DNA of 51,757 nucleotides from Solimicrobium silvestre (GTDB taxonomy: Bacteria > Pseudomonadota > Gammaproteobacteria > Burkholderiales > Burkholderiaceae_D). Shown here piece after piece: positions 8,543-46,127 of this stretch (its first letter is position 1; each line of letters begins with the position of its first letter). The notes under the pieces are model-generated. The model did no database searches, had not been told where the DNA came from, and was given only the letters and a program-made list of their open reading frames with translations. The position numbers and the translations under genes are program-made. Location of the stretch: NCBI RefSeq assembly GCF_002976435.1, contig NZ_PUGF01000032.1:1-51757 (forward strand), in the 5' to 3' direction.

Positions 8543-9537
8543 GCGGATTGTTTTATTGGTAGCCCGACAATTTCCCAGTGCGGAAAATGTTGGTCAAGCA
8601 GGTTGGTAATTGCCTGCAAGTTCGCTTGTTCGAGCGCTTGTCGCAGCAGCCGAACAACACGTGGTTGATGGCGCAGATATTGATATTTGCCATCGCGCCG
8701 CGCCAGACGTTCAAATATGCCCGCTACCTTGGTGTGGCGCTGAGCAGCTAGCAGCCAATAATCGGATAAGAATTGTGGGTGATTAATCTCAGGCATGGCG
8801 TTCAAATAGCGCGTGATCAGATGTTGTTCCAGCCCGTCAGATAAATCACGTCGCGCATCCTGGCACAACGACATCAAGTCGTAAGCGCGGGAACCGATTA
8901 GCGCGTCTTGGAAGTCGAGCAAACCACAGGCAGCGGTTCCAATTCGTTCAGGAATAATCATCAGGTTGTCAACGTGGTAGTCGCGCAGCACCAAGGCATC
9001 GCGTCGCTGTGCCACATCGCTTAATGCCTCCTGCCATCGTTGAATAAATTGCTGGCCGAACTTGGTTGCGCCTTGTTTTAATTCTGGTAGATACCAATGT
9101 AAAAAAAGCTCAACTTCGCTAATTAATGCGGCCATGTCGTAAGTTGGTAGTTCATGCGGCACATGTTGTGCGCTATGCAGTGTTACCAGCGCATCGACGG
9201 CCAGTTCGTATAACGTGGTTTCGTCGTGCCCATTCGCTAATGCACTGGTGTAGGTTTGCGTGCCGAAATCGTCGATCAGTGTTAGCCCTGTCGCAGAGTT
9301 GCTGCGCAAAACGCGTGGCGCGGAAAGGCCGATGTTGTTGAGGTAGTGACTGATAAGGATGTAGGCAGACAGGTCGGGCGAATCCGGTTCCATGTCCATT
9401 AATAATTGCGCGGGCTGGGCATTCGGTAGTCTGAAATAGCAGCGTGATGACGCATCCGCCGCCAGCGCGATGCAAGGGGAGGGTGCAATGCCAGCGGCGC
9501 TAATAAAACGCCGACGTTCGAGATCGCGGATGCTCAT
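8539..9537 (-). CDS. AmgK-like aminoglycoside-phosphotransferase-family kinase
   Basis: This 332-residue protein has the phosphotransferase (APH) fold. The nucleotide-loop segment ADASSRCYFRL is near residue 27, the catalytic loop LRDYHVDNLM (Brenner-type Asp) is near 184, and the metal-binding GLLDFQDA follows. The pattern is that of AmgK, which phosphorylates the anomeric position of N-acetylmuramate/N-acetylglucosamine in cell-wall recycling. Here there is no adjacent MurU-type uridylyltransferase. The gene instead lies among cupin, dehydrogenase and epimerase genes, so a different sugar or amino alcohol is likely. A GGAG site precedes the ATG. Confidence 0.85.
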   Translation of the reverse strand: MSIRDLERRRFISAAGIAPSPCIALAADASSRCYFRLPNAQPAQLLMDMEPDSPDLSAYILISHYLNNIGLSAPRVLRSNSATGLTLIDDFGTQTYTSALANGHDETTLYELAVDALVTLHSAQHVPHELPTYDMAALISEVELFLHWYLPELKQGATKFGQQFIQRWQEALSDVAQRRDALVLRDYHVDNLMIIPERIGTAACGLLDFQDALIGSRAYDLMSLCQDARRDLSDGLEQHLITRYLNAMPEINHPQFLSDYWLLAAQRHTKVAGIFERLARRDGKYQYLRHQPRVVRLLRQALEQANLQAITNLLDQHFPHWEIVGLPIKQSA

Positions 9538-11934: not shown

Positions 11935-13488
11935 TTAGATTTGCGCGGCTACTTCGGCTGCGGCTCGTTCGCCGGAAAGTACGGCGCTTTGCATTGTGGA
12001 GTCGTAGATGACGGTATGTTCGCCGGCGAAGTGAATATTGCCTTCCTGTGCGGCTTCGTATCCCGCGAACAGGGTCATTTGGCCGACTCTGTAGTAGTGA
12101 TAAGTGCCGCGCTGCCAAGGACTAAGTGCCCAGCGGCTTTCGTAGGATTTTCCTGAGTAGGCGGCGGTAGTGCCTGGGTAGACATTTTCGATCTGTGCGA
12201 GAAACCAGTTGATATCGGCGCTTGGTGTTGCTCCGCGTACGGCGCCGGTTAAGCTGGAGTCTGCTGGAAAAGTAACCATTAATGCCGGGTGACCTTTTGG
12301 TCCTAATGGGACTGATTCATCCCAGGCAGTCTGGTAGCCGGAGGGGCCGGTGTTGGTTACGCCGTTGTAGTTCAGTGCGGGCCAGGTCTTGGTTGAGAAT
12401 TGCGAGGTTATCTTCGATCCTTGTCCCATTCCCTGTTGATTGATTGCCGTCAATTTTAGGGTGGATAGTCCGGCACCGGTCAGGTTGACTAAGCGTAAGG
12501 TGCTGAATGGCAATGCAAGCACGACGTGATCGGCGGTGACATTGCTGCTATTGCCGTTGTTGTTGAATGTGCAGTTATAGCTGCCGTCATTGTTTTTGCA
12601 TAGTGCGGTGAGTTGATACCCTTGCTTGATCGAATTTGCCGGTAACTGGCTGATCATGCCGCTGATAATTTGGTCATTTCCGCCCTTGATGTGAAGTGCT
12701 TCATCGAAGCCGCCGCCGTCGAAGGTTTGGTCATTGCCCAGCCATTGGATCATGCTCAATGCTGAGCTGTCTGCGGCGGTACCTCCGCCGCCAACTTGAA
12801 TGGTTTGAATGAGTTGGCCTAAGCGCGAATTCGGATCAAGTCCGATCTCTGTCAGGTAGTCCAGGCAAGACATATTGTCTAGCCGGAATGCTTCGGGTGT
12901 GTAGTTGTTGTAACTGCTTGTTGGTCCGGTCAGTGCATAGGACGCCTTAAAGGCGGGCCAGGCCAGATTGTTCCAGTCATTCTGTTGCGCGTTTTCGCTA
13001 TAGGTGCTGTTGTTGACCCAGGCAACAAACTGGCCTTTGGGGAGTGCTCCGCCGTTGACGGTTTCGGTTTGAAGTCCGAGTGATTGAGCCAGGGCGAGAA
13101 TGTTGCTGTCGGTCGTGCTAATGAAGGTCCCGCCTTGTTCGGCAATTAATCCATTATCAAAAAATCCCCTTAATGACCAGCAGCGACCGCCAAGGTGGCT
13201 GGTGTCGGCGTCGTAAATGGTTGATGCGATAGGTTTGGTGCGATTCCATAGGCTGTGAGCGCAGCGCAGTCCGGCTAATCCTGCGCCGACAATGACGATG
13301 CGTGGTGCAGTGTTTGCTTTGGCTGCGTTTGATGAGTTGCTCCAGCCGACGGCGAGTGTCACTGCCGCAGCGGCGCCGGTACGAAGTACTTGTCGGCGGG
13401 AGATTCCTTTGGTTTCGCTGGGCGTGTCTACTGGATTTGTGCTGGTATTTTCTGTTGCGTGCTGTGGTGATTTGGGATTTTTTTTCAT
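11935..13488 (-). CDS. Tat-exported flavin monoamine oxidase-like protein
   Basis: This 517-residue protein has a twin-arginine signal (SRRQVLRTGAAAAVTLAVGW, about residues 29-48), an FAD-binding GxGxxG motif (IVGAGLAGLRCAHSL) and a C-terminal FAD-contact segment (HFAGEHTV) typical of amine oxidases, including monoamine, polyamine and L-amino-acid oxidases. It should be folded with FAD in the cytoplasm and exported to the periplasm, where it would convert an amine to an aldehyde plus hydrogen peroxide. GGAG precedes the ATG. It shares strand but probably not promoter with the following aldehyde-dehydrogenase operon, which could oxidise the resulting aldehyde. That link is inference. Confidence 0.87.
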   Translation of the reverse strand: MKKNPKSPQHATENTSTNPVDTPSETKGISRRQVLRTGAAAAVTLAVGWSNSSNAAKANTAPRIVIVGAGLAGLRCAHSLWNRTKPIASTIYDADTSHLGGRCWSLRGFFDNGLIAEQGGTFISTTDSNILALAQSLGLQTETVNGGALPKGQFVAWVNNSTYSENAQQNDWNNLAWPAFKASYALTGPTSSYNNYTPEAFRLDNMSCLDYLTEIGLDPNSRLGQLIQTIQVGGGGTAADSSALSMIQWLGNDQTFDGGGFDEALHIKGGNDQIISGMISQLPANSIKQGYQLTALCKNNDGSYNCTFNNNGNSSNVTADHVVLALPFSTLRLVNLTGAGLSTLKLTAINQQGMGQGSKITSQFSTKTWPALNYNGVTNTGPSGYQTAWDESVPLGPKGHPALMVTFPADSSLTGAVRGATPSADINWFLAQIENVYPGTTAAYSGKSYESRWALSPWQRGTYHYYRVGQMTLFAGYEAAQEGNIHFAGEHTVIYDSTMQSAVLSGERAAAEVAAQI

Positions 13489-16093: not shown

Positions 16094-16283
16094 TTGACTG
16101 AGAATGCGCTGTAAATGTAATGTGCACTGGTATTGGGCTGAATGTATTTACCGTATTTTTTATCAGTTAAAGACTGTCGATATTTTTTACGCTTTTTAGT
16201 GAAATTGTTGAGTTTATGATCCGCGCTCATAAAATATTCTCTAAGTTGTTGATAAAAAAGGAAATTTATTTTGCGTTGCTGAG

Positions 16284-16299
16284 TGGAACGTATCTTGCT
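16284..16299 (+). promoter_or_regulatory. Sigma-54 promoter upstream of Cys-rich Tat/HPr-rel-A operon
   Basis: TGGAAC-GTATC-TTGCT has exact GG-N10-GC geometry and differs from the consensus TGGCAC-N5-TTGCW by one base. It lies about 100 bases before the start at 16399 in the correct orientation. It suggests that the operon is transcribed by RpoN RNA polymerase with an enhancer-binding activator; PrsR is encoded 12 kb downstream. Confidence 0.68.
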
Positions 16300-16398
16300 T
16301 TGAATTGCTATAACATACGTGCAATACGATAGGATATCTAATTAGGATCTCTATTTGGGATTCATCGTGTAAAAATGGTATGCAGGACGGAGAGCGTC

Positions 16399-16980
16399 AT
16401 GACGATTGAACAGACCCCGCAAGACGAAGATAAACCTCAACCTCAAAAATCAGAAATAACTGATTTTGCGGGAGAGTCACGCCGGCGCTTTACCAAAGCA
16501 GGGTTGGCAGCCTCGGGCGTGTTAATGACATTGGCGAGCCGTTCCTTGTTAGCTTGCCATGAAATTTCACCATCCGGATTTAGTTCTGTTAATCAGAGTA
16601 CCCACGGAACACCGCCAGCTAGCCGCTGTCGCCGTCCTTATTACTGGGCAGGTGATTGCAGTTGGCCAATAGATAAAACAACTAAATTTAGCAGTGTATT
16701 CCGCTCCTGTACTAAAGGATCTCCGTACTATAACTACACCTGTGCAGATGTGTTGGCAGGAAAATGCACGACTGACACCAATAGTTATGATTGTGTTGGT
16801 CAGTATTTAGTTGCCGCTTATCTGAATGCTTGTATGGGATGGTCGAGCAACTTTTTAACAACCTCACAATGCCTCGAAATGGGTAATGAATGGTTACAGA
16901 CGAAGGTATATCATCCGACTGCAATCGTTTCTTGGAACTGCAATAAAATCGTCACCTACCTGCAGAACGTACAGGCCTAG
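16399..16980 (+). CDS. Cys-rich protein with twin-arginine signal, unknown function
   Basis: I do not recognise this family. The 193-residue protein has an acidic N-terminal leader of about 28 residues, a twin-arginine motif (SRRRFTKAG), a hydrophobic stretch ending near SLLACH, and a mature part with ten cysteines spread from about residue 52 to the end, several in Cys-Trp or Tyr-Cys contexts. Export by Tat as a folded, perhaps disulfide- or cofactor-bearing protein is likely. The ATG at 16399 is chosen for GGAG upstream. Twenty-nine bases after it comes a PqqD-like gene. PqqD-type proteins bind leader peptides, so this protein is a candidate substrate of the HPr-rel-A system. Confidence 0.72.
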   Translation: MTIEQTPQDEDKPQPQKSEITDFAGESRRRFTKAGLAASGVLMTLASRSLLACHEISPSGFSSVNQSTHGTPPASRCRRPYYWAGDCSWPIDKTTKFSSVFRSCTKGSPYYNYTCADVLAGKCTTDTNSYDCVGQYLVAAYLNACMGWSSNFLTTSQCLEMGNEWLQTKVYHPTAIVSWNCNKIVTYLQNVQA

Positions 16981-17009
16981 TCTCTATAAGTTGAGGATTC
17001 TTGATAAGA

Positions 17010-17282
17010 ATGAAATGGCGAACCGTTACCACTACTGCCAATAACTTACGAATTTGGGGGGATGAGTATGTTGTCTATAACCCTCAGTCTGGAAGCACCC
17101 ATCTGCTAGGTTTGGCTGCTGGCCAAATTCTTCAAAAACTGGAAATTTCACCGTTGGATGTCAGTAGCCTGGCATCGTTACTTGGTGCTGAATGGCAGCA
17201 AGAGGCGGAGCCTGATTTTGTGCAATCCGTGCAAAATTTATTGACTGACTTGCAAGCGCTAGCCTTAATTGAGTGCGCCTGA
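17010..17282 (+). CDS. PqqD-family protein of the HPr-rel-A system
   Basis: This 90-residue protein has the PqqD-like winged-helix pattern: a conserved YNPQSGSTHLLG hairpin and a terminal helix ending in a short hydrophobic strand. Family members act as peptide-recognition (RRE) domains that deliver precursor peptides to modifying enzymes. The HPr-rel-A version is known only from its linkage to an HprK-related kinase and a nucleotidyltransferase. I prefer the ATG at 17010, although a TTG at 17001 is closer to a GAGG site. The stop codon at 17280-17282 is the only thing separating it, in the same reading frame, from the kinase gene. Confidence 0.78.
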   Translation: MKWRTVTTTANNLRIWGDEYVVYNPQSGSTHLLGLAAGQILQKLEISPLDVSSLASLLGAEWQQEAEPDFVQSVQNLLTDLQALALIECA

Positions 17283-18194
17283 TTGAAACTTTCCTCGCTT
17301 ACTCCTTCGGAGCTGATTCGGCAATTGCGTCAGGGATTATTCCTGCAAACGGGCGCATTTGTGGTCCACATAAAAACCCGTATTCCAGCGGTTGCACATG
17401 GCTTGGGGCTGCTGTATGCCGATTATTCCCTGGCTAGTAATGAGTTTGCCGATTTTCATGTGACATTAGCGCCACCGCGTAATCTTCGTCGCTGGTTGCG
17501 GTCGCAGGTTCTGTTTCAGTTTGAAGGAAAGTTACCGTTTAAACCCTTACCCTATAGTCAAGCCTTCCCGATGCTGGAATGGGGGTTAAATTGGTGCGTC
17601 TCTAACCATGCACATACCTACCTCATGATTCATGCTGCCGTAGTGGAAAAGGGCGGGCGAGCCGCCATTTTGCCAGCACCTCCCGGTTCCGGGAAAAGCA
17701 CTTTGTGCGCAGCCTTGATAAATCGGGGCTGGCGCTTGTTGTCGGATGAACTGACCCTAATACGCTTGAATGATGGCTTGATTGAGTCATTTCCACGCCC
17801 CGTCAGTTTGAAAAATGGTTCCATAGAAGTCATCAAACGTTATGTCCCTTCTGCCATATTTAGTCCTGTCGTGAAAGATACGATCAAAGGCACAGTCGCC
17901 CACATGAAACCCTCTACTGACAGTGTGCAGCGTGGGCAAGAACCCGCTCGCGCTGCATGGATCATCTTTCCTAAATTTACTGTAGGTGCGGAAACCCGTC
18001 TCGAAGAGATTCCTTCTGCACGCGCCTTCATGCGCGTCGCAGACAATTCATTCAATTATGGGCTGCTGGGGCAACAAGGCTTTCAAGCATTGGCCCAACT
18101 CATCGATCATAGTCAGGCCTTCGACTTTAGCTATAGCGAGCTTGATGAGGCAATGCAGGTATTTGATAATTTAACCTTAACAAAGCAAGCATGA
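17283..18194 (+). CDS. HprK-related kinase A (HPr-rel-A system)
   Basis: This 303-residue protein has a Walker A motif PAPPGSGKST at residues 131-140 and a following LLSDELTLI segment resembling the catalytic Asp loop of HPr kinase/phosphorylase. The N-terminal part (residues 1-110) is specific to the HprK-related A group. It should phosphorylate a protein or peptide, but the cell's ordinary HPr is not implied. The start is a TTG at 17283, immediately after the in-frame TGA of the PqqD gene. The next in-frame ATG is near residue 97 and would remove conserved sequence. Read-through giving a PqqD-kinase fusion is possible. It overlaps the next gene by ATGA. Confidence 0.82.
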   Translation: MKLSSLTPSELIRQLRQGLFLQTGAFVVHIKTRIPAVAHGLGLLYADYSLASNEFADFHVTLAPPRNLRRWLRSQVLFQFEGKLPFKPLPYSQAFPMLEWGLNWCVSNHAHTYLMIHAAVVEKGGRAAILPAPPGSGKSTLCAALINRGWRLLSDELTLIRLNDGLIESFPRPVSLKNGSIEVIKRYVPSAIFSPVVKDTIKGTVAHMKPSTDSVQRGQEPARAAWIIFPKFTVGAETRLEEIPSARAFMRVADNSFNYGLLGQQGFQALAQLIDHSQAFDFSYSELDEAMQVFDNLTLTKQA

Positions 18195-19273
18195 GGCCAA
18201 ACGGTTTGATACTTGCCGCGTTGCGTGACCCTGCCTCGTTGCCTGATTGGAATCTGCACGAATGGGATTTACTCTTGCGTCAACTCAGGCATGCCAATCT
18301 GACTGCCAGCTTGCATGCGCAATTACTTGCGCTTGGTCTGTTGTCGCGCATTCCAGCACAACCACGTCGGCATCTTGATTGGTCGGCTAAGTTGGCTAGC
18401 AGGCATACACAATCAGTGTTGTGGGAAGTTGAGTTTATCCGCCAGGCAATGAGCGAGGCCGGAGTGCCATTGATATTGCTGAAGGGTGCCGCTTATGTCA
18501 TGGCTGCGCTACCGCACTCACGCGGGAGAATATTTTCGGATATCGACATTATTGTGCCGAAGGAAAATTTGGATCTTGTTGAGTCAACGCTGATGTTATA
18601 TGGCTGGAATGCTACACATCATGATGGTTATGATCAGCGCTATTACCGCACCTGGATGCACGAACTGCCACCAATGCAACATCTGACGCGTGCCACCGCC
18701 ATTGACGTGCATCACGCTATTTTGCCGGTAACGGCTCGGCTACATCCTGATTCGACAAAATTATTGGCAGCGGCAGTGCCGGCTAATGGAGATTTAACAA
18801 CCTTGGTGTTTGCACCGATCGACATGGTTTTGCACAGTGCTGTGCATTTGTTTCATGACGGCGAATATGATCAAGGTTTGCGTGATTTGGTCGACATTCA
18901 TTCCTTGTTGGTGCATTTCTCTGCAGAGCCCGGATTTTGGACCAGTCTTACTACGCGTGCGCAAGAGTTGGAGCTTGTCCGCCCACTGTTTTATGCGTTG
19001 CGTTATGCCGCACGTTTATTGCATACGCCAATACCGTTGCAGGTAATGCAGGCGGCCGATTCGGGGCGGCCTAACTCAGTATTGCTTGCGTTGATGGACA
19101 GTTTGTTTGAGCGTGCGCTAATGCCAAAACATGCCAGTTGCAATGATCGCTACACCGGTGTTGCGCGTTTTGCATTGTACTTGCGCGCCAATTGGCTGCG
19201 TATGCCACTCTTGTTGCTGACACGCCATCTTTTGCATAAAGCTATTTTATCGCCCAGAAAAAAAGAAGAGTAA
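18191..19273 (+). CDS. Nucleotidyltransferase-family protein (HPr-rel-A system)
   Basis: This 360-residue protein belongs to the NTP_transf_5 type: LKGAAYVMAALPHSRGRIFSDIDIIVP (quoted as two parts, LKGAAYV and GRIFSDIDIIV) contains the GR..SDID metal-binding Asp pair near residues 118-121. A later conserved VHHAILP and DLVDIH pattern follows. Such proteins transfer a nucleotide to an unknown acceptor. The ATG at 18191 overlaps the kinase stop by ATGA, so kinase and nucleotidyltransferase are translationally coupled. A similar kinase plus nucleotidyltransferase pairing occurs in some lasso-peptide tailoring clusters, which suggests peptide modification here by analogy. Confidence 0.82.
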   Translation: MRPNGLILAALRDPASLPDWNLHEWDLLLRQLRHANLTASLHAQLLALGLLSRIPAQPRRHLDWSAKLASRHTQSVLWEVEFIRQAMSEAGVPLILLKGAAYVMAALPHSRGRIFSDIDIIVPKENLDLVESTLMLYGWNATHHDGYDQRYYRTWMHELPPMQHLTRATAIDVHHAILPVTARLHPDSTKLLAAAVPANGDLTTLVFAPIDMVLHSAVHLFHDGEYDQGLRDLVDIHSLLVHFSAEPGFWTSLTTRAQELELVRPLFYALRYAARLLHTPIPLQVMQAADSGRPNSVLLALMDSLFERALMPKHASCNDRYTGVARFALYLRANWLRMPLLLLTRHLLHKAILSPRKKEE

Positions 19274-19540: not shown

Positions 19541-20431
19541 ATGGCAAGTTTAAAATACGTTTGTTTGTTGGTTTATTGCTCTACTTTTGCAATTGGTAGC
19601 TCGGCATTTGCTGGTCATGTTGAATTGCTGTTGAGTACTGATGACAACATTCCTACAGAAGCGATGGTATTAACGAAGCTGGCGCGACAATATGAAAACG
19701 CCGAAGGCATCCCAAGAGATTATGCCTTTGCACTAGAGCTATATTGCCAAGCTGCAAAATTAGGTTATGCCGATGCGCAGTACGCGTTGGGCTGGATGTA
19801 TGCAAATGGACGCGGGGTGGCACGCGACGATGACGTTGCGGCACTCTTGTTCCACACGGCAGCACAGCAAGGGCATGTACAGGCCAAGACGATGACACAC
19901 TACGTCAGGTCTGGAACGATCAAATTACCAGCATGTAAGTCGGAGGAGATTTCAAAGGTTGTGGAGCAGCAGGCCGTATTGCTGGAGAAACAATTTCCGC
20001 GTGGTCAAGTCTTCGATCTGGTGGAAAAACTATCCCCGCTTTATCGCATCGATCCGAATTTAGTATTAGCTATTATTTCTGTGGAATCAGGTTTTAATGC
20101 ACATGCTGTGTCGCCAAAAAATGCACAAGGTTTAATGCAGTTGTTGCCTGAAACGGCGCAACGTTTTGGCGTGAAAGATTCGTTCAATATTGAGCAAAAT
20201 TTAAAGGGCGGCATTGCCTATCTGCAATGGCTGTTAGCGTACTTTAAAGGGAATGTTGTATTGGTTGCTGCTGCTTATAACGCAGGCGAAAAGGCAGTTG
20301 AAAAATATCGTGGTGTCCCGCCTTACCCGGAAACGGTGGACTACGTAAAACGAATCACCGGTTTGTACCCCAAACCTAGTCATCCTTTTCAGCGCCATAT
20401 TGTAGAAGCATCAGCGGTAGTAATGCGATAG
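19541..20431 (+). CDS. Sel1-repeat lytic transglycosylase (SLT domain)
   Basis: This 296-residue secreted protein has a signal peptide ending near AFAG, one to two Sel1-like TPR repeats (about residues 45-120, with YALGWMYANGRGV) and a C-terminal SLT domain (about 155-280). The SLT domain holds catalytic Glu182 in ISVESGFN, then GLMQLLPETA and AAYNAGEKAV. It would cleave peptidoglycan glycan strands, probably to let the polysaccharide or secretion machinery pass through the cell wall. Transglycosylases of this type are common in exosortase A loci. The ATG at 19541 is used rather than the TTG at 19535; the ribosome site is weak in either case. Confidence 0.88.
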   Translation: MASLKYVCLLVYCSTFAIGSSAFAGHVELLLSTDDNIPTEAMVLTKLARQYENAEGIPRDYAFALELYCQAAKLGYADAQYALGWMYANGRGVARDDDVAALLFHTAAQQGHVQAKTMTHYVRSGTIKLPACKSEEISKVVEQQAVLLEKQFPRGQVFDLVEKLSPLYRIDPNLVLAIISVESGFNAHAVSPKNAQGLMQLLPETAQRFGVKDSFNIEQNLKGGIAYLQWLLAYFKGNVVLVAAAYNAGEKAVEKYRGVPPYPETVDYVKRITGLYPKPSHPFQRHIVEASAVVMR

Positions 20432-22992: not shown

Positions 22993-23102
22993 ACAGAGCG
23001 ATGTCGATTTTTTTTACAGTATGGATGTGGTGTGTTTTAGGTGGAATTTTTTTTTGATGCAATTTCTTTTTAAATCAACGAGTTATGTTTATTTTCTAAA
23101 TT

Positions 23103-23118
23103 TGGCACAGCTTTTGCT
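23103..23118 (+). promoter_or_regulatory. Sigma-54 promoter of the PEP-CTERM gene
   Basis: TGGCAC-AGCTT-TTGCT matches the RpoN consensus exactly, with GG-N10-GC spacing, 51 bases before the PEP-CTERM protein start. A good AAGGGG ribosome site follows at 23155-23160. RpoN plus PrsR control of PEP-CTERM genes is known from floc-forming Zoogloea, and prsK/prsR lie 3 kb downstream here. Confidence 0.85.
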
Positions 23119-23168: not shown

Positions 23169-24017
23169 ATGAATATCAAAAAAATTTCCACCGCAGTTGC
23201 ACTAGCGTTTGCAGTTTGCACAGTAGCGTCTGCCGGTCCAGTAATCTTAGAATCCGGTAATCTGAAATTTACCGTGGCTAACTATGATTCAGCTGCTGTT
23301 GGTTACGGCAATACCGCTGGTCTGGTATGCACTACCGCTGCGACATGCGCAACTGCAGGCGGTGCGGTGCCTGGTGGTGTAGCAGGAGAAAGCTCTTGGG
23401 GGATATTCTCCATCAGCTCGATTTCTGAAATATCTACCGGTACTACTATCTGGAGTGCTGGCGCTGGCCAATACCTGACAGGTATGTTCGGTGGCTTGCA
23501 AGATTACGAGGTACAAGTCACCAATTCAATCACCGGGCCTTCCACAACAATTTTGGATTCAGGCGGTTGGTTGAATATGTATATGAATTCAACTAACTAC
23601 ACCCCTGCTGACGGTCCTGGCGGTCGTACTGGTCAGTATGCCTACACAGGCATTACAGGCGGTACTTTGATGCTATCAGCCGATTTTTCGCCAGGTATCC
23701 TCGGCGGCATACCTGCTGCAACATATACTTCCACTTATCAAGACGCGTCAATCGGCGGTACTGGTGAGGGTTATATGGATGTAACTGGTGGGGCTTGGGC
23801 AAGCCAACTGGCAACGGATTCATTGACTGATCCTAACGGTGGCAACCATGACTTGTACTTGGGTACACAATTCGCGGCAAATGCAACAGCAACAGCAGAT
23901 GGCTGGACAGTAATTTCCGCATCTCAAGTATTTGGCGCCGCCCCAGAACCAGCATCATTAGCTTTGTTCGGTTTAGGATTGGCAGGACTGGCATTTTTAC
24001 GGCGTCGTAGAACTTAA
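23169..24017 (+). CDS. PEP-CTERM sorting-domain protein
   Basis: This 282-residue secreted protein has a signal peptide ending at ASAG (about residue 22), a Gly/Ser/Thr-rich beta-type body with two cysteines near residues 58 and 64, and a C-terminal tripartite sorting signal: PEP at 259-261, the hydrophobic stretch LALFGLGLAGLAFL, then RRRRT. Exosortase (XrtA) would cut at this signal and release or attach the protein to the extracellular matrix. A perfect sigma-54 promoter precedes it and a strong intrinsic terminator follows it, so it is a monocistronic, highly regulated gene. The body matches no family I recognise. Confidence 0.92.
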   Translation: MNIKKISTAVALAFAVCTVASAGPVILESGNLKFTVANYDSAAVGYGNTAGLVCTTAATCATAGGAVPGGVAGESSWGIFSISSISEISTGTTIWSAGAGQYLTGMFGGLQDYEVQVTNSITGPSTTILDSGGWLNMYMNSTNYTPADGPGGRTGQYAYTGITGGTLMLSADFSPGILGGIPAATYTSTYQDASIGGTGEGYMDVTGGAWASQLATDSLTDPNGGNHDLYLGTQFAANATATADGWTVISASQVFGAAPEPASLALFGLGLAGLAFLRRRRT

Positions 24018-25944: not shown

Positions 25945-28029
25945 ATGCATTCCCCCATGCTAAGCAACGTCGCAATCTTGAGTTACGGCCTTGCCGCTGC
26001 GGCATACCTGGTTTTGTCGGGCATGTTGCTGTGGAAGTGGCGCGGGCGGCTACGTTGGATGCCGCTCATGGTTGCCGCCGGTATAACAACGGTATGGGCG
26101 GCGTCGATTGCGCTGAATGCAAAATTTGGAATCCCGACCGGATTTTGGATCAATAGCCTGGAAGTTATGCGTAGCGCGAGCTGGATCATTTTTTTGCTCA
26201 TGCTGCTGCAACCGCTGGAGCGCGAGACCCCTCAATCCCTGTTTAAGGAAAAACCCTATGTAGTGCTAATAGGGCTATTCCTGTTGCTGTTGCTTGCGGC
26301 GACCATGCTCACTAATGTCGGTCTTATGGTCAGGTTTGGCGGTATCGTTAATATTACCGGGCGTGTTGCGTTGGCCGTTATCGGCATGTTATTGCTGGAG
26401 CAATTATTCAGGAATACGACGGAACACCAGCGCTGGAGCGTTAAATTTGCCTGCCTGGGTTTGGCGGCTTTATTTGTGTATGACTTCTATCTCTATGCAG
26501 ATGCCATGTTGTTCCATGCCATTAACGGTGAAATATTGGCGGCGCGCGGTTTTGTGAATGCCTTGTCGGTGCCACTGCTGATGATCTCGCTAAACAGGGA
26601 TCCCAAATGGACGTTGGGTATTCTAGTCTCACGCCGTGTCCTGTTTCATTCCGCGACCTTACTGGGGGCCGCTGCTTACCTGTTAACAATGGCGGCGGCG
26701 GGTTACTACATTCGTTTCTTCGGTGGGCAATGGGGCACGGTGTTGCAGGTTTTTTTCTTGTTCGGCGCGGTTATATTATTGTTTATTCTGCTGTTTTCAG
26801 GATCGGTTCGGTCTTGGCTGCGAGTCTTCATTAGCAAGCACTTTTATAACTACAACTACGATTACCGTGACGAATGGATACGCTTTACCCGGGTTTTGTC
26901 TGAGTCGGAGCCAGGTCTAGGTGAGCGCGCCATACAAGCCGTTGCGCAATTGGTAGAAAGCGGTGCAGGCACCCTGTTCATTAGCCGCGAATCTGGTTAT
27001 TGCGAACCTGTTGCGCAATGGTGCGCCCAATTTGAGAGCCAGGCTGAGGCGCTGAATAGTCCGTTTTGCCGATTCCTGCAAGAGAAGCAATGGGTGATCA
27101 ATTTGACCGACTATAAATTGCACCCCGAAAAATACGATGATATTTCAGTCCCACAATGGTTGCTCGATTTTCCTAGAGCCTGGTTAGTGCTGCCGCTGAT
27201 ACTTCATGGACGTTTGTTCGGTTTTATCATGTTGGAACAGGCCAGAAGCAAGTTCGATGTGAACTGGGAAGTGCTGGATCTGTTGAAAATTGCAACCAGT
27301 CAGGCGGCTAGTTATCTGGCCGAACAAGAATCTGCGAATGCGTTGATGGTGGCCCGTCAATTTGAATCTTTCAACCGTATGTCGACATTTATGGTGCATG
27401 ATTTAAAGAATCTGGTGGCGCAATTATCGTTGTTGACGGCCAATGCTGAAAAGCATCAACATAATCCCGAGTTTCAAAAAGACATGCTGGATACTGTTGA
27501 TCACTCCGTACAAAAAATGAAATTTTTGCTGCAAAAACTCAGCCGGGGATTTGAAGTGGAAAGTTTGAGTGCGTTGGCGATGGATGAATTGCTGCAACGG
27601 GCGGTTGCCTCTAAATCTCCCTATGAACCCAAACCGGTATTACAAATTGAGCAGCCGGATATTGCGGTGTATGCGAATCGAGAGCGTCTTGAACGTGTCA
27701 TTGGCCACATCATACAAAATGCGATTGATGCGACTCCCCGAGACGGCGATATCAAAATTAAGCTGGGTCTGGATGGACGTGATGCGTTGATCGAGATTGA
27801 AGATAACGGAGTAGGGATGACGGAAGAGTTTATCCGGGAAAAACTGTTCAGCCCGTTCGTGTCCACCAAGGTGGCGGGAATGGGGATCGGTGTTTTTGAA
27901 ACACGGGAATATATTCAGCAATTGGGTGGCCGGTTAGAAGTACAAAGTCGGCCGGAGTCGGGTACTCGCTTCAAAATTACATTACCCGTCTACAGCACAC
28001 TAGAACAAGTCAACACACAAATAGCGTAA
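25945..28029 (+). CDS. prsK: PEP-CTERM system histidine kinase PrsK
   Basis: This 694-residue sensor kinase has about eight N-terminal membrane helices (residues 1-300), a GAF-like region (about 315-470), a phosphoacceptor His485 in MVHDLKNLVAQ, and an HATPase domain with IEDNGVGM and GMGIGVF motifs (about 590-690). This is the known arrangement of PrsK, which senses an unknown cue at the inner membrane and phosphorylates PrsR to activate RpoN-dependent PEP-CTERM genes. prsR follows 17 bases later. The HDLKN H-box and the length fit the family well. Confidence 0.93.
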   Translation: MHSPMLSNVAILSYGLAAAAYLVLSGMLLWKWRGRLRWMPLMVAAGITTVWAASIALNAKFGIPTGFWINSLEVMRSASWIIFLLMLLQPLERETPQSLFKEKPYVVLIGLFLLLLLAATMLTNVGLMVRFGGIVNITGRVALAVIGMLLLEQLFRNTTEHQRWSVKFACLGLAALFVYDFYLYADAMLFHAINGEILAARGFVNALSVPLLMISLNRDPKWTLGILVSRRVLFHSATLLGAAAYLLTMAAAGYYIRFFGGQWGTVLQVFFLFGAVILLFILLFSGSVRSWLRVFISKHFYNYNYDYRDEWIRFTRVLSESEPGLGERAIQAVAQLVESGAGTLFISRESGYCEPVAQWCAQFESQAEALNSPFCRFLQEKQWVINLTDYKLHPEKYDDISVPQWLLDFPRAWLVLPLILHGRLFGFIMLEQARSKFDVNWEVLDLLKIATSQAASYLAEQESANALMVARQFESFNRMSTFMVHDLKNLVAQLSLLTANAEKHQHNPEFQKDMLDTVDHSVQKMKFLLQKLSRGFEVESLSALAMDELLQRAVASKSPYEPKPVLQIEQPDIAVYANRERLERVIGHIIQNAIDATPRDGDIKIKLGLDGRDALIEIEDNGVGMTEEFIREKLFSPFVSTKVAGMGIGVFETREYIQQLGGRLEVQSRPESGTRFKITLPVYSTLEQVNTQIA

Positions 28030-28046: not shown

Positions 28047-29399
28047 GTGAATCAGGAAAAAAAGAAACTGTTGATCATTGAAGACGACCTCGGTTTGCAA
28101 AAACAGTTGCGCTGGAGTTTGGACGCCTACGAGGTCATCGTGGCTGGCGACCGTGAAAGTGCGATGGCACAAGTGCGCCGCCATGAACCCGCCGTCATTA
28201 CGATGGACTTGGGTTTGCCACCTGATCCCGACGGCTCTTCGGAAGGTCTTGCCATCTTACAACAGGTTTTGTCGATGGCACCCGACACCAAATTAATCGT
28301 CTTGTCCGGTAACCAAGACCGGCAGAATGCGCTCAAAGCGATTGCAATGGGTGCCTACGATTTCCATCAAAAACCTTGCGACCCGGAAATGCTGAATCTG
28401 GTGATACAGCGCGCCTTCTTTCTGCATGCGTTACAGCAGGAAAATCGGCGCATGTTGCAAAATCAGGCCGCGTCGCCGATGGCTGGAGTAATCACCCGCG
28501 ACCCAGCCATGTTGAAGGTTTGCCGCAATATAGAAAAGGTTGGGCCGTCGTCGGCTTCGGTAATGTTGTTGGGTGACAGCGGTACCGGTAAGGAAGTGCT
28601 GGCAAGAGCATTGCATCAATTAAGCCCGCGACAAGATAAACGTTTTATGGCGATTAACTGTGCTGCTATCCCTGAGAATTTACTGGAAAGCGAATTGTTC
28701 GGTTATGAAAAGGGCGCATTTACCGGGGCGGTGAAGCAGAATCTGGGCAAGATTGAATTGGCGAATGAAGGTACTTTCTTTCTTGACGAGGTGGGTGATT
28801 TGCCGATGGCGCTGCAAGCTAAATTGCTACGTTTCCTTCAAGAGCGGGTTTTTGAACGGATCGGCGGGCATAAGGAAATTCCGGTGGATGTGCGCATCGT
28901 CTGCGCTACCCATCAAAACCTGAAAGAGTTGGCGTCCACCGGTCGTTTCCGCGAAGACTTATATTATCGGCTCAGCGAGATCGTGATTAATATCCCGCCG
29001 CTAGCTGATCGTGCCGGTGATGCCGCATTACTGGCCCATCACTTCAAGAATAAGTTCAATGCCAAAGAAGGGCGACCTGGGCTTAATTTTAGCCAGGATG
29101 CCTTAGCGCTGATAGAAAGCCATCGCTGGCCGGGTAACGTGCGCGAGATGGAAAACTGTATCAAGCGAGCCGTGATTATGGCCGATGGCCTGCAAATAAC
29201 GGTGGAAGATCTTGGCCTTTCCGCTAACAACATCGCGGAGGAGCCGATCAATTTGCGCCAGATCCGTGAAGACGCTGAATACAAGGCCGTTGTAAAAGCA
29301 CTGGCACACGTGGACGGTAATATTGCCAAGGCAGCCGAGTTGTTGGGCATTAGTCGTCCGACACTTTATGACTTAATGAATCGCCATTCGATTAAATGA
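28047..29399 (+). CDS. prsR: PEP-CTERM system sigma-54 response regulator PrsR
   Basis: This 450-residue NtrC-type activator has a receiver domain with phosphoacceptor Asp54 (in TMDLGLPPD), an AAA+ domain with Walker A GDSGTGKE (176-183) and the sigma-54 contact loop GAFTGA (223-228), and a Fis-type helix-turn-helix near 425-447 (KAAELLGISRPTLYDLM). It should bind upstream of RpoN promoters when phosphorylated by PrsK. The GTG start at 28047 has an AAGGG site upstream. Likely targets in this window are the sigma-54 promoters at 23103 and 16284. Confidence 0.94.
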   Translation: MNQEKKKLLIIEDDLGLQKQLRWSLDAYEVIVAGDRESAMAQVRRHEPAVITMDLGLPPDPDGSSEGLAILQQVLSMAPDTKLIVLSGNQDRQNALKAIAMGAYDFHQKPCDPEMLNLVIQRAFFLHALQQENRRMLQNQAASPMAGVITRDPAMLKVCRNIEKVGPSSASVMLLGDSGTGKEVLARALHQLSPRQDKRFMAINCAAIPENLLESELFGYEKGAFTGAVKQNLGKIELANEGTFFLDEVGDLPMALQAKLLRFLQERVFERIGGHKEIPVDVRIVCATHQNLKELASTGRFREDLYYRLSEIVINIPPLADRAGDAALLAHHFKNKFNAKEGRPGLNFSQDALALIESHRWPGNVREMENCIKRAVIMADGLQITVEDLGLSANNIAEEPINLRQIREDAEYKAVVKALAHVDGNIAKAAELLGISRPTLYDLMNRHSIK

Positions 29400-29432: not shown

Positions 29433-31028
29433 ATGACCGATCTCGTACATCAACTTATTTTAGAAGCGGCGGCTCGCGCTCCACAAGCGGAAGCGCTTTG
29501 CTACCAGGGACAGCGTATGTCCTATGCGGAACTGGCACAACAGACGCAACAGGTTGGACAGGCATTATTAACATTAGGTGTGCAGCGTAGTGATCGCGTC
29601 GCGGTATATCTGGAAAAACGTTTTGAGACTGTGCTCGCCATGTTTGGCGCATCCGCTGCCGGTGCTGCCTTTGTGCCAGTCAACCCCTTGTTGAAAGCGG
29701 AGCAGCTGATCTACATTCTCAATGATTGTCAGGTAAAAATTTTAGTCACCTCGGCACAACGATTGGCTGTGGTGCTGCCATTGTTATCCGAATGTCCCAG
29801 TTTGAAGGGGGTTATTGTTGTTGGCGGTGACAGCTCTACAGCCATCGCAAGTGGATCGCATTTTCAACTTGTGCACTGGGAAGCTCTGGAACAATTGCAC
29901 GATGCGCGAACACCGCATTGCTGCATAGACCGCGACATCGTGGCTATTCTTTATACATCAGGAAGTACCGGACAGCCCAAGGGCGTTGTGTTGTCGCATC
30001 GCAATTTACTGGCCGGTGCACAAAGTGTTGCGCACTATTTGGAAAACACGGCCGATGATCGGGTTTTGTGTGTTTTACCGCTGAGCTTTGATTACGGCTT
30101 GAGCCAATTAACCACGGTATTCCTGACTGGCGGCACCGCAGTACTGCTCAATTACTTACTACCGCGTGACATTTTGGATGCTGTAAAGCAAGAGCGCATT
30201 ACCGGGCTTGCTGCCGTACCACCATTATGGATTCAACTCGCAGCGTTAGATTGGTCTGGAGCAACAAGTCTGCGCTATCTGACTAATTCTGGTGGCGTAA
30301 TGCAACGTTCTACATTAGATATCTTGCGTCGAAATTTGCCTGATGCAAAAATCTATTTAATGTATGGCTTGACCGAGGCCTTCCGCTCCACTTTTTTGCC
30401 TCCCGAGCAGTTGGATCGCCGTCCAGATTCGATAGGTCGAGCGATTCCTAATGCAGAAGTGCTGGTGTTACGACCAGATGGTAGTGAATGTGATGCAGAA
30501 GAGCCGGGCGAACTCGTACATCGAGGTGCTTTGGTTGCATTGGGATATTGGAATGATGCGGAAAAGACGGCAGAGCGTTTCAAGCCGCTGCCGCTACAGT
30601 TACAGAACAGCAGCTTGCCGCTGCCGGAAATTGCCGTGTGGTCGGGCGATATCGTGCGTAAGGATGCGGAAGGGTATTTGTATTTTCTGGGGCGTACTGA
30701 CGAGCTGATTAAAGTCTCAGGTTATCGAGTTAGTCCAACTGAAATAGAACAAGTTATTTGTACGATGGATGGCGTAAGCGAGTTTGCCGCAGTAGGAGTT
30801 GCGCACCCTGTTTTGGGGCAAGCTATCGTCGCCATTGTTAAGCAGAACAGTAACTTAACTGCAGAGACTTTGCGCCAACAGTGTCAGCGCAGGCTGCCCG
30901 CGTATATGGTGCCGATGCACATCGTAGTCGAAACTGAAGCCTTGCCGCGCAATGCCAACGGCAAGATAGATCGCAAGGCATTGCAACGTCGCTTTGCACA
31001 TATTTTTAACACTGAGTTTCAACATTAA
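29433..31028 (+). CDS. Acyl-CoA ligase (AMP-forming), exosortase A system-associated
   Basis: This 531-residue adenylate-forming enzyme has TSGSTGQPKG beginning at Thr175, YGLTEA, FLGRTDELIKVSGYR and the catalytic lysine region PRNANGKIDRKAL near the C-terminus. It would activate a carboxylate as an acyl-AMP and load it onto CoA or the locus ACP. Its stop directly abuts the decarboxylase start. The gene order (ligase, then PLP decarboxylase) is that of exosortase A loci, where both are thought to supply an unusual acyl or amino group. Confidence 0.9.
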   Translation: MTDLVHQLILEAAARAPQAEALCYQGQRMSYAELAQQTQQVGQALLTLGVQRSDRVAVYLEKRFETVLAMFGASAAGAAFVPVNPLLKAEQLIYILNDCQVKILVTSAQRLAVVLPLLSECPSLKGVIVVGGDSSTAIASGSHFQLVHWEALEQLHDARTPHCCIDRDIVAILYTSGSTGQPKGVVLSHRNLLAGAQSVAHYLENTADDRVLCVLPLSFDYGLSQLTTVFLTGGTAVLLNYLLPRDILDAVKQERITGLAAVPPLWIQLAALDWSGATSLRYLTNSGGVMQRSTLDILRRNLPDAKIYLMYGLTEAFRSTFLPPEQLDRRPDSIGRAIPNAEVLVLRPDGSECDAEEPGELVHRGALVALGYWNDAEKTAERFKPLPLQLQNSSLPLPEIAVWSGDIVRKDAEGYLYFLGRTDELIKVSGYRVSPTEIEQVICTMDGVSEFAAVGVAHPVLGQAIVAIVKQNSNLTAETLRQQCQRRLPAYMVPMHIVVETEALPRNANGKIDRKALQRRFAHIFNTEFQH

Positions 31029-40215: not shown

Positions 40216-41298
40216 TTATATTCCCAGCCGCCAGAGTACGCTCTGGAATCCACGCGCAACCAGCGTTGGCAGAGAATTATTGTGCCAGACACCTCGGTAA
40301 AAATAATGTTCGTCGCTGAGAATTTCCTTCTTGCTAGGCGTTACCCCTTCGCCCCGATCTATGGTGTGGATATTGTGCAGCGTAGTTGCCTTGCATATAT
40401 TGTCTAGCAACAGTCTTCCCGGGCCGTATTTGGCCATTTCCGGATTGTATACAGGCAACCAATATTGTAAGACGCCATTACCCATGATGCCAAAATGGCT
40501 GGCTACCCATTGATCTCCGGCCTGCAGATGCGAAAGCACGCCCCGGCATGAGCTTGACTTGGTAAACAGCAGCCGTTCCAGAAGATCGATCTTCCAGGCT
40601 TGCGCCAAGACATCGGGCACATTGGTTCTTTTGTACTGCGCCCGTTTTTGACGTATCAGGTTATGCAAATGCTCTGTGCGATTTTCGATCAGGTCGAAGG
40701 TGAATTCAAGCGGGCCAAAGTCCTCCTTCAAATGCTTCTCGCGCCGTGTCATTTCGCGCATATGCTTTTGGCTGATCGGGCAGTCGACTTCATTGCCGTT
40801 AAATATTTTGTCACAAGGAATTCGTAAGCCCGGCCTTGGCAGCTCACCGGTTAAGCCATAAGCCAGTTGCGATTCATCTAAATGGGAAAAGGTGATCTGA
40901 TTCAGGTTCGCCAGCGATAACAGCGTGGCCGGCGTAATCCTTAAATCTTCGCTGGCGATCAGACCAAAGTAGTCGGTCATTTGCCGGCCGACCGGTTCTG
41001 CGGATTTTAACCATTCCGAAGTGCGATTTTGGAATTGGTAAGGTAAGAAACCACGCAACTGCCCATCTTGCGAGATGACGCATACCTTCACATTGACACC
41101 CGACTCGGCAACGGCGCTGGTGTATTGAAAGCTTAAAAAAGGCGAAGACAAGTGAGCAATGTTTGCTGACAAGGCATTCCACGCTGTAATTTCTAGTTCC
41201 GTCAGATCTGCAGGCGTTACTACGCGTGAGCTTAGTCCGCTGTTTAAGCCACTATTTAGTCCATCCTTCAGTCCACTATTTAAGCCGCTACTCAGCAT
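40216..41298 (-). CDS. FemAB/CelD-type GNAT acyltransferase B with N-terminal repeats
   Basis: This 360-residue protein has the same double-GNAT pattern as the downstream paralogue (ASHFGIMGNGVLQYWLPVY, YGPGRLLLDN, IDRGEGVTPSK). It probably acylates or aminoacylates a sugar. Its first 24 residues are a low-complexity run of SGLN-like tetrapeptides encoded by five 12-bp repeats (41234-41293), not seen in the paralogue. The start overlaps the flippase-deacetylase gene by 11 bases and has GAGG upstream, so translation is coupled. The 12-bp unit can expand or shrink without a frameshift. Confidence 0.82.
   Translation of the reverse strand: MLSSGLNSGLKDGLNSGLNSGLSSRVVTPADLTELEITAWNALSANIAHLSSPFLSFQYTSAVAESGVNVKVCVISQDGQLRGFLPYQFQNRTSEWLKSAEPVGRQMTDYFGLIASEDLRITPATLLSLANLNQITFSHLDESQLAYGLTGELPRPGLRIPCDKIFNGNEVDCPISQKHMREMTRREKHLKEDFGPLEFTFDLIENRTEHLHNLIRQKRAQYKRTNVPDVLAQAWKIDLLERLLFTKSSSCRGVLSHLQAGDQWVASHFGIMGNGVLQYWLPVYNPEMAKYGPGRLLLDNICKATTLHNIHTIDRGEGVTPSKKEILSDEHYFYRGVWHNNSLPTLVARGFQSVLWRLGI
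41234..41293. repeat. Five 12-bp tandem repeats inside the GNAT start
   Basis: Units with consensus near AGTCCACTATTT run in phase at 41234, 41246, 41258, 41270 and 41282. On the coding strand each encodes a tetrapeptide like SGLN. Because 12 is a multiple of three, copy-number change alters the length of the N-terminus but not the frame. Confidence 0.85.
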
Positions 41299-44801: not shown

Positions 44802-46127
44802 CTACGGTGTTTGTTGGGGTACACGGATAGTCAGGTCTACATTGCTGGCAGTAATTGCTGTTGCTTCAGGTTCTGCCGTAGCGTTGCTAGTCAGGCTGTC
44901 CTTTGATAATAGTAATTTCTCAAGCAAAATCAATACGGCGACGATGTCGTAATAAAGATCGTAGTAAGCCAATGTCAAAAAAGCACCGCCGATTGCGTAA
45001 CCAATAATACTGACTTGGCACATGGCGGCAAGATCCGAAGCCCATTTCAGGTCTTCTCGGTCTTTGCAAAATTTTAGTACCCGAGTTCCCGTGCGCCATG
45101 CCAGAAACATAAAAAGTAGAAATAGGCTGATGCCGACGAAGCCGTGTTCACCCACTACCTGAAAATAAATGCTGTGCGCTGCATGTTGGTTATAGGGTTC
45201 CGGCGCATACACAACGAAGAGCCGGTTGGTGAAGCAGTCAAAACCACCGCCCATCAAGTTGGCAGAGGCGACGTTAATGGCAAATCCCCAGGCATTGATC
45301 CGACCTAAAGCGGATGAATCTTGTTGGTAATTATCAATCGTGTGCATGCGATCAAACCACTGTGCCGGCATTACGGCGTAAATGACAACGACAATCAACA
45401 GCAAGATTATTCCGGTACGAATTTTTTGCCGGTTCTTCAGCCAGAGGAAAAAGAACATGGCAGCGCCGCCTAACAGCGCGCCGCGTGAGTACGAGCCGAC
45501 GGCGGCGATGACTGTCAGCATTGTTAATCCGATGAAGCCATAGCGCAGAATTTTTTGCGTGACACTTAGCTGCACATACCAGATCAAGGGTAGTGCGGTA
45601 ACCAGCGCCAAAGCTAGCGCATTGTTATCCGTGATATAGCTGCCTTCTGGGCCAAACACATGGCTGCTACCGCCGGAAAGTATCGTGAATACGCCGCCTT
45701 TAAACCCAAAAAAACCGAGCGAAAGGCCGATTGTCCAGGCCAGTGCCTGTATTTCTTGCTTGGTATTAATGGTAAGCAGGATCACCGCCACCAAGATCAT
45801 AGTTTTCATAACGCGACTCCATTCGGCCCAGGCTCGCGTTGGTTCCAATGCGTAAAAAGTAGTTAATGTCATCCATGTAACGAACACCAGCAGGGTTATC
45901 GTTAGCCCTGTAACTGGAAAATTTTTCTTCTGGTTCGATACCAGTAGACTAATCAACGTCACCACGACGATGACTGCTGCAAACGGAAAGTCATAGGCTG
46001 CGCCATACGTTAGCCTATGCGGGTTCATCAAGCTGACCCAGGTGAACAGCAAGACGCCGATAAACGGCTTCTTGAACACGAAGGGCAGGATGCTGAAAAT
46101 TAAAATAAAGAGTGCAATATCACGCAT
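44802..46127 (-). CDS. O-antigen-ligase-like protein, exosortase A system-associated
   Basis: This 441-residue membrane protein has about 11-12 helices and a large periplasmic loop (about residues 255-330, with YNQHAAHSIYFQVVGEHG). That loop matches Wzy/O-antigen ligase proteins and the exosortase A-associated putative O-glycosylation ligase family. It could polymerise repeat units or transfer glycan to exported proteins. The ATG at 46127 overlaps the previous stop by 8 bases; an upstream in-frame start at 46145 is less likely. No second polymerase gene is present in the window. Confidence 0.88.
   Translation of the reverse strand: MRDIALFILIFSILPFVFKKPFIGVLLFTWVSLMNPHRLTYGAAYDFPFAAVIVVVTLISLLVSNQKKNFPVTGLTITLLVFVTWMTLTTFYALEPTRAWAEWSRVMKTMILVAVILLTINTKQEIQALAWTIGLSLGFFGFKGGVFTILSGGSSHVFGPEGSYITDNNALALALVTALPLIWYVQLSVTQKILRYGFIGLTMLTVIAAVGSYSRGALLGGAAMFFFLWLKNRQKIRTGIILLLIVVVIYAVMPAQWFDRMHTIDNYQQDSSALGRINAWGFAINVASANLMGGGFDCFTNRLFVVYAPEPYNQHAAHSIYFQVVGEHGFVGISLFLLFMFLAWRTGTRVLKFCKDREDLKWASDLAAMCQVSIIGYAIGGAFLTLAYYDLYYDIVAVLILLEKLLLSKDSLTSNATAEPEATAITASNVDLTIRVPQQTP

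Follow-up and report, generated by a model that had tools for sequence, protein, structure and literature searches.

The window analysed here, a stretch of 51,757 nucleotides of Solimicrobium silvestre (Burkholderiales; RefSeq assembly GCF_002976435.1, contig NZ_PUGF01000032.1), contains four closely packed genes on the forward strand (16399-19273) that encode, in this order, a protein with a twin-arginine translocation (Tat) signal, a PqqD-type protein, an HprK-related kinase and a nucleotidyltransferase (Table 1). An earlier reading of this DNA from its sequence alone had placed a PqqD-kinase-nucleotidyltransferase operon behind a 193-residue Tat protein, and the genes do lie there and abut: the kinase frame begins right behind the stop codon of the PqqD-type gene, and the ATG of the nucleotidyltransferase overlaps the stop codon of the kinase. 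The kinase scores 405.9 bits against TIGR04352 (HprK-related kinase A; cut-off 200) and fails the canonical HPr kinase/phosphorylase models (16.2 bits against the 240 of TIGR00679, 14.2 against the 33.3 of PF07475), the nucleotidyltransferase reaches 189.4 bits against PF14907 (cut-off 31.2), and the PqqD-type protein, encoded immediately upstream of the kinase, 57.8 bits against TIGR04353 (cut-off 35). The Tat protein, 193 residues long from the ATG at 16399 and 201 from an alternative in-frame ATG at 16375, matches no family in Pfam or NCBIfam scans, and neither do the mature parts of 50 of its relatives. We consider it fairly probable that the operon combines one dedicated exported protein with a cytoplasmic machinery that modifies this protein before export, that the four genes are controlled by PrsR and sigma-54, and that the exported protein acts in the extracellular matrix.

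Table 1. Coordinates of the operon, its promoter elements and related features of the window.
Feature	Position	Strand	Remarks
PEP-CTERM box motif 1 TGTCGATATTTTTTAC, predicted PrsR enhancer site	16175..16190	+	pattern search; ends TTTACG here
Sigma-54 (-24/-12) promoter TGGAACGTATCTTGCT	16284..16299	+	93 nt after motif 1
Tat-signal protein, candidate substrate, 193 aa	16399..16980	+	acidic leader, Tat signal, serine motif, C-terminal GYW-type domain
PqqD-type protein, predicted leader binder (RiPP recognition element, RRE)	17010..17282	+	TIGR04353; start ATG 17010 or TTG 17001
HprK-related kinase A	17283..18194	+	TIGR04352
Nucleotidyltransferase	18191..19273	+	PF14907
Comparison PEP-CTERM box: TGTCGATTTTTTTTAC (23002-23017) and TGGCACAGCTTTTGCT (23103-23118)	23002..23118	+	precedes PEP-CTERM gene 23169-24017
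PrsR, PEP-CTERM-box response regulator, predicted activator	28047..29399	+	TIGR02915, 743.8 bits at 28068-29396

Three features are conserved in the Tat-protein family: the leader is acidic, the Tat signal is of an extended form, and a serine motif follows this signal. The sequence-only reading had pointed to the first two, and both hold across the family: the 26 residues ahead of the Tat motif in the window protein carry a net charge of -5, the leader is negative in 78 of 90 relatives (median -3), and the two arginines of the signal are kept in 96 and 97 of 98 aligned representatives sharing less than 80% identity. The signal of the window protein (SRRRFTKAG..VLMTLAS) fits the Tat pattern (S/T-R-R-x-F/L plus a hydrophobic stretch), from which export is predicted, and is followed by the serine motif SPSGFSSVNQS (residues 57-67). 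In the same alignment, the signal-internal Thr44 and Ser47 are kept in 86 and 87 sequences, Ser59, Ser63 and Ser67 of the motif in 90, 92 and 79, and strong columns are also formed by one cysteine behind the signal (92), Trp89 (91) and Asn143 (91); a frequent form of the family is [ST]RRxFxKAGxxAPVIMTLASRP..(G/A)..C..SG..SGN.S....C.G.[ST]PGYWK... The cysteines, on which the sequence-only reading had laid its emphasis, do not define the family, since their number varies from 1 to 12 among relatives, they form only two widely kept columns (92/98 and 86/98) and the window protein, with its 10 cysteines, aligns without one in either. The remainder of the protein is a small, mostly helical domain for which a search of the PDB gave no match. 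A few open reading frames (ORFs) outside the operon carry the GYW-type domain without the serine motif; in G080, G084 and G099, where the kinase is not above cut-off, the domain matches open frames of 290-1352 aa that lack this motif. In a divergent branch of the operon (L069, L077, L078, L080 and L101), a similar signal precedes other cargo. What the enzymes need thus seems to be the leader together with the signal and the residues that directly follow, and the cargo varies. The Tat ORF of L077 (locus positions 9278-9511) encodes 66 aa from its methionine and ends in CISCNASLI straight after the signal; in this case the machinery may act on a substrate of peptide size.

The association of the four genes in other genomes was the check set beforehand for this system, and it bears out the expected co-occurrence of the Tat gene with the enzymes. 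A broad scan with the kinase alignment found at least 580 relatives, of which the best 80 were kept; among these 80 loci, the Tat gene is present in 79, the PqqD gene in 79 and the nucleotidyltransferase in all. The hosts include Undibacterium, Massilia, Noviherbaspirillum, Thiobacillus, Gallionella, Nitrotoga, Sulfuricella, Malonomonas rubra and an acidobacterial metagenome-assembled genome (MAG); the Malonomonas genome presumably belongs to the Desulfobacterota. A second and partly overlapping set of 40 long loci was drawn from a class sample of 274 genomes, in which the kinase model matches 129 genomes at E 0.001 and 27 above cut-off. Twenty-one of these loci were fetched by the kinase from the 27 above-cut-off genomes (leaving aside G008, G067, G147, G186, G259 and the genome of S. 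silvestre itself) and 19 by the Tat protein from the 51 family genomes with a match. All 21 kinase-fetched loci contain the Tat gene and all 19 Tat-fetched loci the kinase, the Tat gene being present in the latter by construction, because the Tat protein was used to fetch them. Across all 40, the kinase and nucleotidyltransferase are accompanied by a Tat-type ORF upstream of the kinase and on its strand; the PqqD gene was recovered by single-sequence search in only 29. The profile of the Tat protein was trained on loci that recur in the counted sets, and the ten long loci outside its training all match it (E 9e-43 to 0.03). Thirty shorter loci fetched by the Tat protein (L032-L061) all contain the PqqD gene and the kinase, and 28 of them the nucleotidyltransferase, the remaining two ending before its position. 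The linkage of the four genes is thus far beyond chance. A profile of the signal finds one strong match in the genome of S. silvestre (E 0.01 or better), with two more at E above 0.05, and among 59 genomes, this one included, the 13 that have a match at E 0.01 (three of them weak) have exactly one each; in some of these genomes the count covers only the first 125 candidates. Hence, there is probably one dedicated substrate per genome.

The proteins that accompany this candidate substrate resemble a leader binder and two active enzymes. The structure of the PqqD-like protein is modelled (predicted local distance difference test score 93.9) as a small winged-helix fold of the leader-binding kind, and its top matches in the PDB are TbiB1-leader complexes, PqqD and the lasso B1-leader complex 6jx3 (E 0.002 to 0.011, TM-score 0.68-0.78), so that the model resembles the leader binders of lasso peptides and makes the protein a predicted binder. 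All 25 aligned kinase sequences share H117, G135, G137, K138 of the P-loop, S139, D155, E156, K202 and G203, and at least 120 of 121 nucleotidyltransferase sequences retain each of K98, G99, D117, D119 and D172. With their likely catalytic residues retained, both enzymes look catalytically active. An alternative use of the same proteins, which we regard as quite improbable, would have the PqqD-like protein act as a proofreading chaperone of Tat export and the kinase and nucleotidyltransferase regulate this export, the modification being a reversible switch that leaves no tag on the mature protein. In its favour, the extended Tat signal shows an unusual degree of conservation of its own: a [TS][LV]x[SN] pattern follows the twin arginine in 75 of 80 Tat-filtered operon proteins and in none of nine other Tat-like ORFs from the same loci, a control set that is, on the other hand, tiny (n=9). 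Moreover, the serines behind the signal equal it in conservation, and the published precedents of the enzyme trio yield modified peptides; both speak against a mere switch.

Besides the conserved serine motif, the sequence-only reading overlooked the promoter of the operon, which is of the PEP-CTERM type. PEP-CTERM genes have been described as preceded by a two-part element consisting of motif 1, with TTTACA, and motif 2, a sigma-54 site, with PrsK and PrsR as predicted regulators (PMC1569441), and sigma-54 dependence was later demonstrated for one PEP-CTERM gene (PMC9850573). Both halves lie ahead of the operon, as they do ahead of a PEP-CTERM gene in the same window (Table 1). Among 117 usable upstream regions out of 120, the composite box is found in 67, whereas over 100 shuffles the number averages 0.02 and never exceeds 1; after removal of redundancy it is found in 58 of 102, always in the form TGTC-N7-TTTAC, and in a broad class-level set that includes the window in 11 of 21. 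The sigma-54 site alone occurs in 77 of the 117 regions (shuffle mean 4.83, maximum 11), as compared with 10 of 115 when a stretch further upstream is taken as control, and in 10 of 21 in the class-level set. These counts use strict and composite patterns; an initial, loosely thresholded sigma-54 score was dropped because shuffled sequences also passed it at low cut-offs. The 108 composite matches in the 120 sequences stand before a Tat/Ser-type ORF in 56 cases, before an ORF with a PEP-CTERM tail in 33 and before ORFs labelled 'other' in 19, the labels being assigned by regular expressions and at least five of the 19 being, by eye, the operon's own Tat gene.

In the genome of S. silvestre both halves of the box precede four of the eight PEP-CTERM genes (TIGR02595, E 0.1). 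Upstream of the scripted start, two of the other four have the sigma-54 site only and two have neither half, and in one of these last (L228) the scripted start may sit too far upstream. A composite pattern with a spacer of 40-70 nt has no match in the window, and with a spacer of 72-102 nt it occurs at 10 places in the genome, against 2 for a reversed control pattern. Two of the ten are the boxes before the operon and the PEP-CTERM gene, one (45292-45393) falls inside the ORF 44802-46145, and the pattern is not specific by itself. The promoter follows motif 1 at distances that cluster near 65, 76, 86 and 96 nt, with a helical phasing of 0.59 at period 10 that exceeds all 2000 random draws (maximum 0.468) and that, because the loci are related, is no more than suggestive. 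As judged from these patterns, the operon appears to belong to the PEP-CTERM-box (PrsR/sigma-54) regulon, and its dependence on rpoN and prsR is predicted. Membership in this regulon also bears on the idea that the kinase and nucleotidyltransferase form a pair serving defence or acting as toxin and antitoxin, and that the gene association is a passenger effect. Nucleotidyltransferases do occur in toxin-antitoxin systems. The promoter shared with PEP-CTERM genes, the recurrence of the set over proteobacterial genera, a Malonomonas genome and an acidobacterial MAG, and a PADLOC search with the four proteins that gave no match at E 0.01 together make this idea very hard to credit.

The distribution of the regulator agrees with such an assignment. 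PrsR is found above cut-off in 26 of the 27 kinase genomes and in 47 of the 247 others (73/274 overall), the sole kinase genome without it being G008, which is 75% complete, and exosortase A (XrtA) in 22 of the 27 and 29 of the 247 (51/274 overall); the corresponding Fisher values, uncorrected for phylogeny, are 5e-16 and 4e-14. The surroundings of the operon are likewise of the exosortase-A/exopolysaccharide type, with hydrolase 1, an acyl-carrier-type protein and the PEP-CTERM acyltransferase identified by family scan, and PrsR (TIGR02915) and a PEP-CTERM protein (TIGR02595) also nearby. The histidine kinase encoded beside PrsR (25945-28029, forward strand) we take to be PrsK-like, from its position. 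These surroundings and the regulation in common, together with the fact that kinases and nucleotidyltransferases are commonly paired in sugar-phosphate chemistry, lend some weight to another explanation, in which the enzymes act on a lipid carrier, a sugar nucleotide or some other exopolysaccharide intermediate and the Tat protein is their unmodified periplasmic partner. We nonetheless find it unlikely, since a PqqD-type protein that models best on leader-peptide binders belongs to the set in 79 of 80 loci, and since the leader, signal and serine region of the Tat protein is conserved at least as well as its folded domain.

Other features of the neighbourhood may be recorded here. A Sel1-repeat/lytic transglycosylase gene lies 3' of the operon (19541-20431) and has relatives inside the fetched flanks in 15 of the 80 broad-scan loci. 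On the other strand, just past the exosortase-associated hydrolase genes, 11935-13488 encodes a flavin amine oxidase (PF01593) with a Tat signal of its own. An ORF of 843 aa (41288-43819) appears by eye to fuse a polysaccharide flippase to a polysaccharide deacetylase domain, and the tRNA-Ala reported by ARAGORN at 29795-29882, on the same strand as and within the ORF 29433-31028 (an acyl-CoA ligase by eye), is probably a false positive.

By analogy of protein kinds, the closest relatives of the system would be the linear polyphosphorylated peptides (LPP) of the Bacillota and the lasso peptides of the paeninodin type. The LPP description (PMC13381572) reports an HprK-like kinase that adds several phosphates to Ser3 of the core, precursors of 35-200 aa with a conserved N-terminus and a variable C-terminus, and clusters that are often near capsular polysaccharide loci. 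LPP clusters share with the operon a stand-alone leader binder, an HprK-like kinase and a nucleotidyltransferase, the absence of a lasso cyclase and the proximity to polysaccharide loci; the pattern of their precursors parallels a Tat-protein signal with varying cargo, and the serine modified in LPP is close to the leader. The system described here differs in being mostly proteobacterial, in having a Tat signal in place of the MsbA-like transporter of LPP, in its larger folded protein, in its PEP-CTERM-box control and in lacking the [Y/W]xxP motif of the leader; neither an SpI-like leader peptidase nor an MsbA-like transporter is found among the four operon and six flanking genes scanned. In pseudomycoidin, according to two reviews (PMC8498205, PMC9266682), the kinase phosphorylates a C-terminal serine and the nucleotidyltransferase is required for the addition of one or two hexoses to the phosphoserine; this enzyme may be either a glycosyltransferase or a true nucleotidyltransferase. 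The paeninodin and pseudomycoidin systems (PadeK, PsmK, PsmN) resemble the operon in the kinds of their kinase, their nucleotidyltransferase and their B1 leader binder. Their target serine is C-terminal, whereas the candidate serines here stand just behind the signal peptide, and neither a B2 peptidase nor the macrolactam cyclase C occurs in the operon or in the six flanking genes scanned. With the PEP-CTERM/exosortase A regulon and its PrsK/PrsR/sigma-54 control (PMC1569441) the operon shares the two-part promoter. It differs in that its protein carries a Tat signal and no PEP-CTERM sorting tail; TIGR02595 matches this genome at eight places (E 0.1), none of them the Tat protein.

The name of the HPr-rel-A system in NCBIfam covers a kinase (TIGR04352) and a PqqD-type chaperone (TIGR04353), both of which are above their curated cut-offs here, whereas the family of the Tat substrate has no Pfam or NCBIfam model. 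In a literature search that left most subscription journals outside its reach, we found no paper on the HPr-rel-A system or on these two families, nor any that links an HprK-related kinase or an exosortase with PqqD, and the main text of PMC1569441 mentions neither HPr nor PqqD. The sequence-only reading, which knew of no described function for the system, agrees with this outcome. Therefore, within the literature searched, the Tat substrate that almost always accompanies the kinase, the serine motif of this protein and its membership in the PEP-CTERM-box regulon appear undescribed.

In the order of events that we propose, PrsK/PrsR and sigma-54 would switch on the exopolysaccharide/PEP-CTERM programme and with it the co-expression of the four genes; the PqqD-type protein would bind the Tat precursor by its leader/signal region and present it to the kinase, which would phosphorylate one of the motif serines close behind the signal peptide (S59, S63 or S67 in the window protein); onto this serine phosphate the PF14907 enzyme may then add a nucleotide or a sugar; and the folded protein would be exported by the Tat system to act in the extracellular exopolysaccharide matrix. 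Both modifications would precede export, and their proposal follows the analogy with the systems above. The sequence-only reading had likewise taken these genes for a modification system that acts on the Tat protein encoded next to it. The linkage (79/80 and 40/40 loci), the single signal match per genome, the leader-binder fold and the retained residues speak for that pairing; as no report of a modification was found, the biochemical step is one that we infer. More tentatively, the operon could embody a Gram-negative protein-tagging pathway, in which a leader binder of the kind known from ribosomally synthesized and post-translationally modified peptides (RiPPs) hands a whole Tat precursor to the kinase and nucleotidyltransferase, phospho-sugars or phospho-nucleotides are placed on its serines, and export under PrsR/sigma-54 control leaves the matrix tied to the cell; we see this as a possibility well short of probable.

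Several observations weigh against the reading of the operon as a dedicated substrate with its modifying machinery. As regards linkage, locus L110, from a Nitrosospira MAG, has the kinase and nucleotidyltransferase with neither a Tat nor a PqqD gene detectable, the mature Tat domain is not matched in five of the 27 kinase genomes (G057, G091, G134, G213 and G259), and in L077, L078, L080 and L101 the nucleotidyltransferase is on the opposite strand. The serine motif is gone or unrecognizable throughout the divergent branch, which retains the kinase. The PqqD-like protein scores 19.9 bits against the general Pfam model of PqqD, below the cut-off of 23.4, its structure model has no PDB match at E 0.001 or better, and the [Y/W]xxP motif recognized by lasso-type binders is present in none of 90 leaders, so that the mode of binding must differ from theirs. 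The lasso kinases are reported to need a catalytic His-Lys-Asp-Asp set (PMC9266682), and three of these four residues agree here (H117, K138 and D155), the fourth position being a glutamate (Glu156) in 25 of 25 sequences, by our own matching of positions. With respect to regulation, the composite box is incomplete or absent in 50 of the 117 upstream regions, and XrtA is below cut-off in five of the 27 kinase genomes. Finally, deletion of the nucleotidyltransferase gene of an LPP cluster in a heterologous host produced no detectable change (PMC13381572), and the role of the nucleotidyltransferase is hence the weakest step of the proposal.

The operon probably represents an undescribed route by which a biofilm protein is tagged ahead of export. 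If so, a system named so far by computation, HPr-rel-A, would acquire a substrate and a regulon, along with a chemistry that can be tested, and the phosphorylating RiPP-like systems newly described in the Bacillota would extend to whole exported proteins of environmental Proteobacteria. The exosortase/exopolysaccharide programme of floc and biofilm formation would in turn gain a partner that has no PEP-CTERM tail. Were the tagging pathway itself to hold, RiPP chemistry would here serve the assembly of a matrix and not the making of a small-molecule product, and the divergent branch with its other cargo, in one case a protein of 66 aa, would represent natural variants of it.

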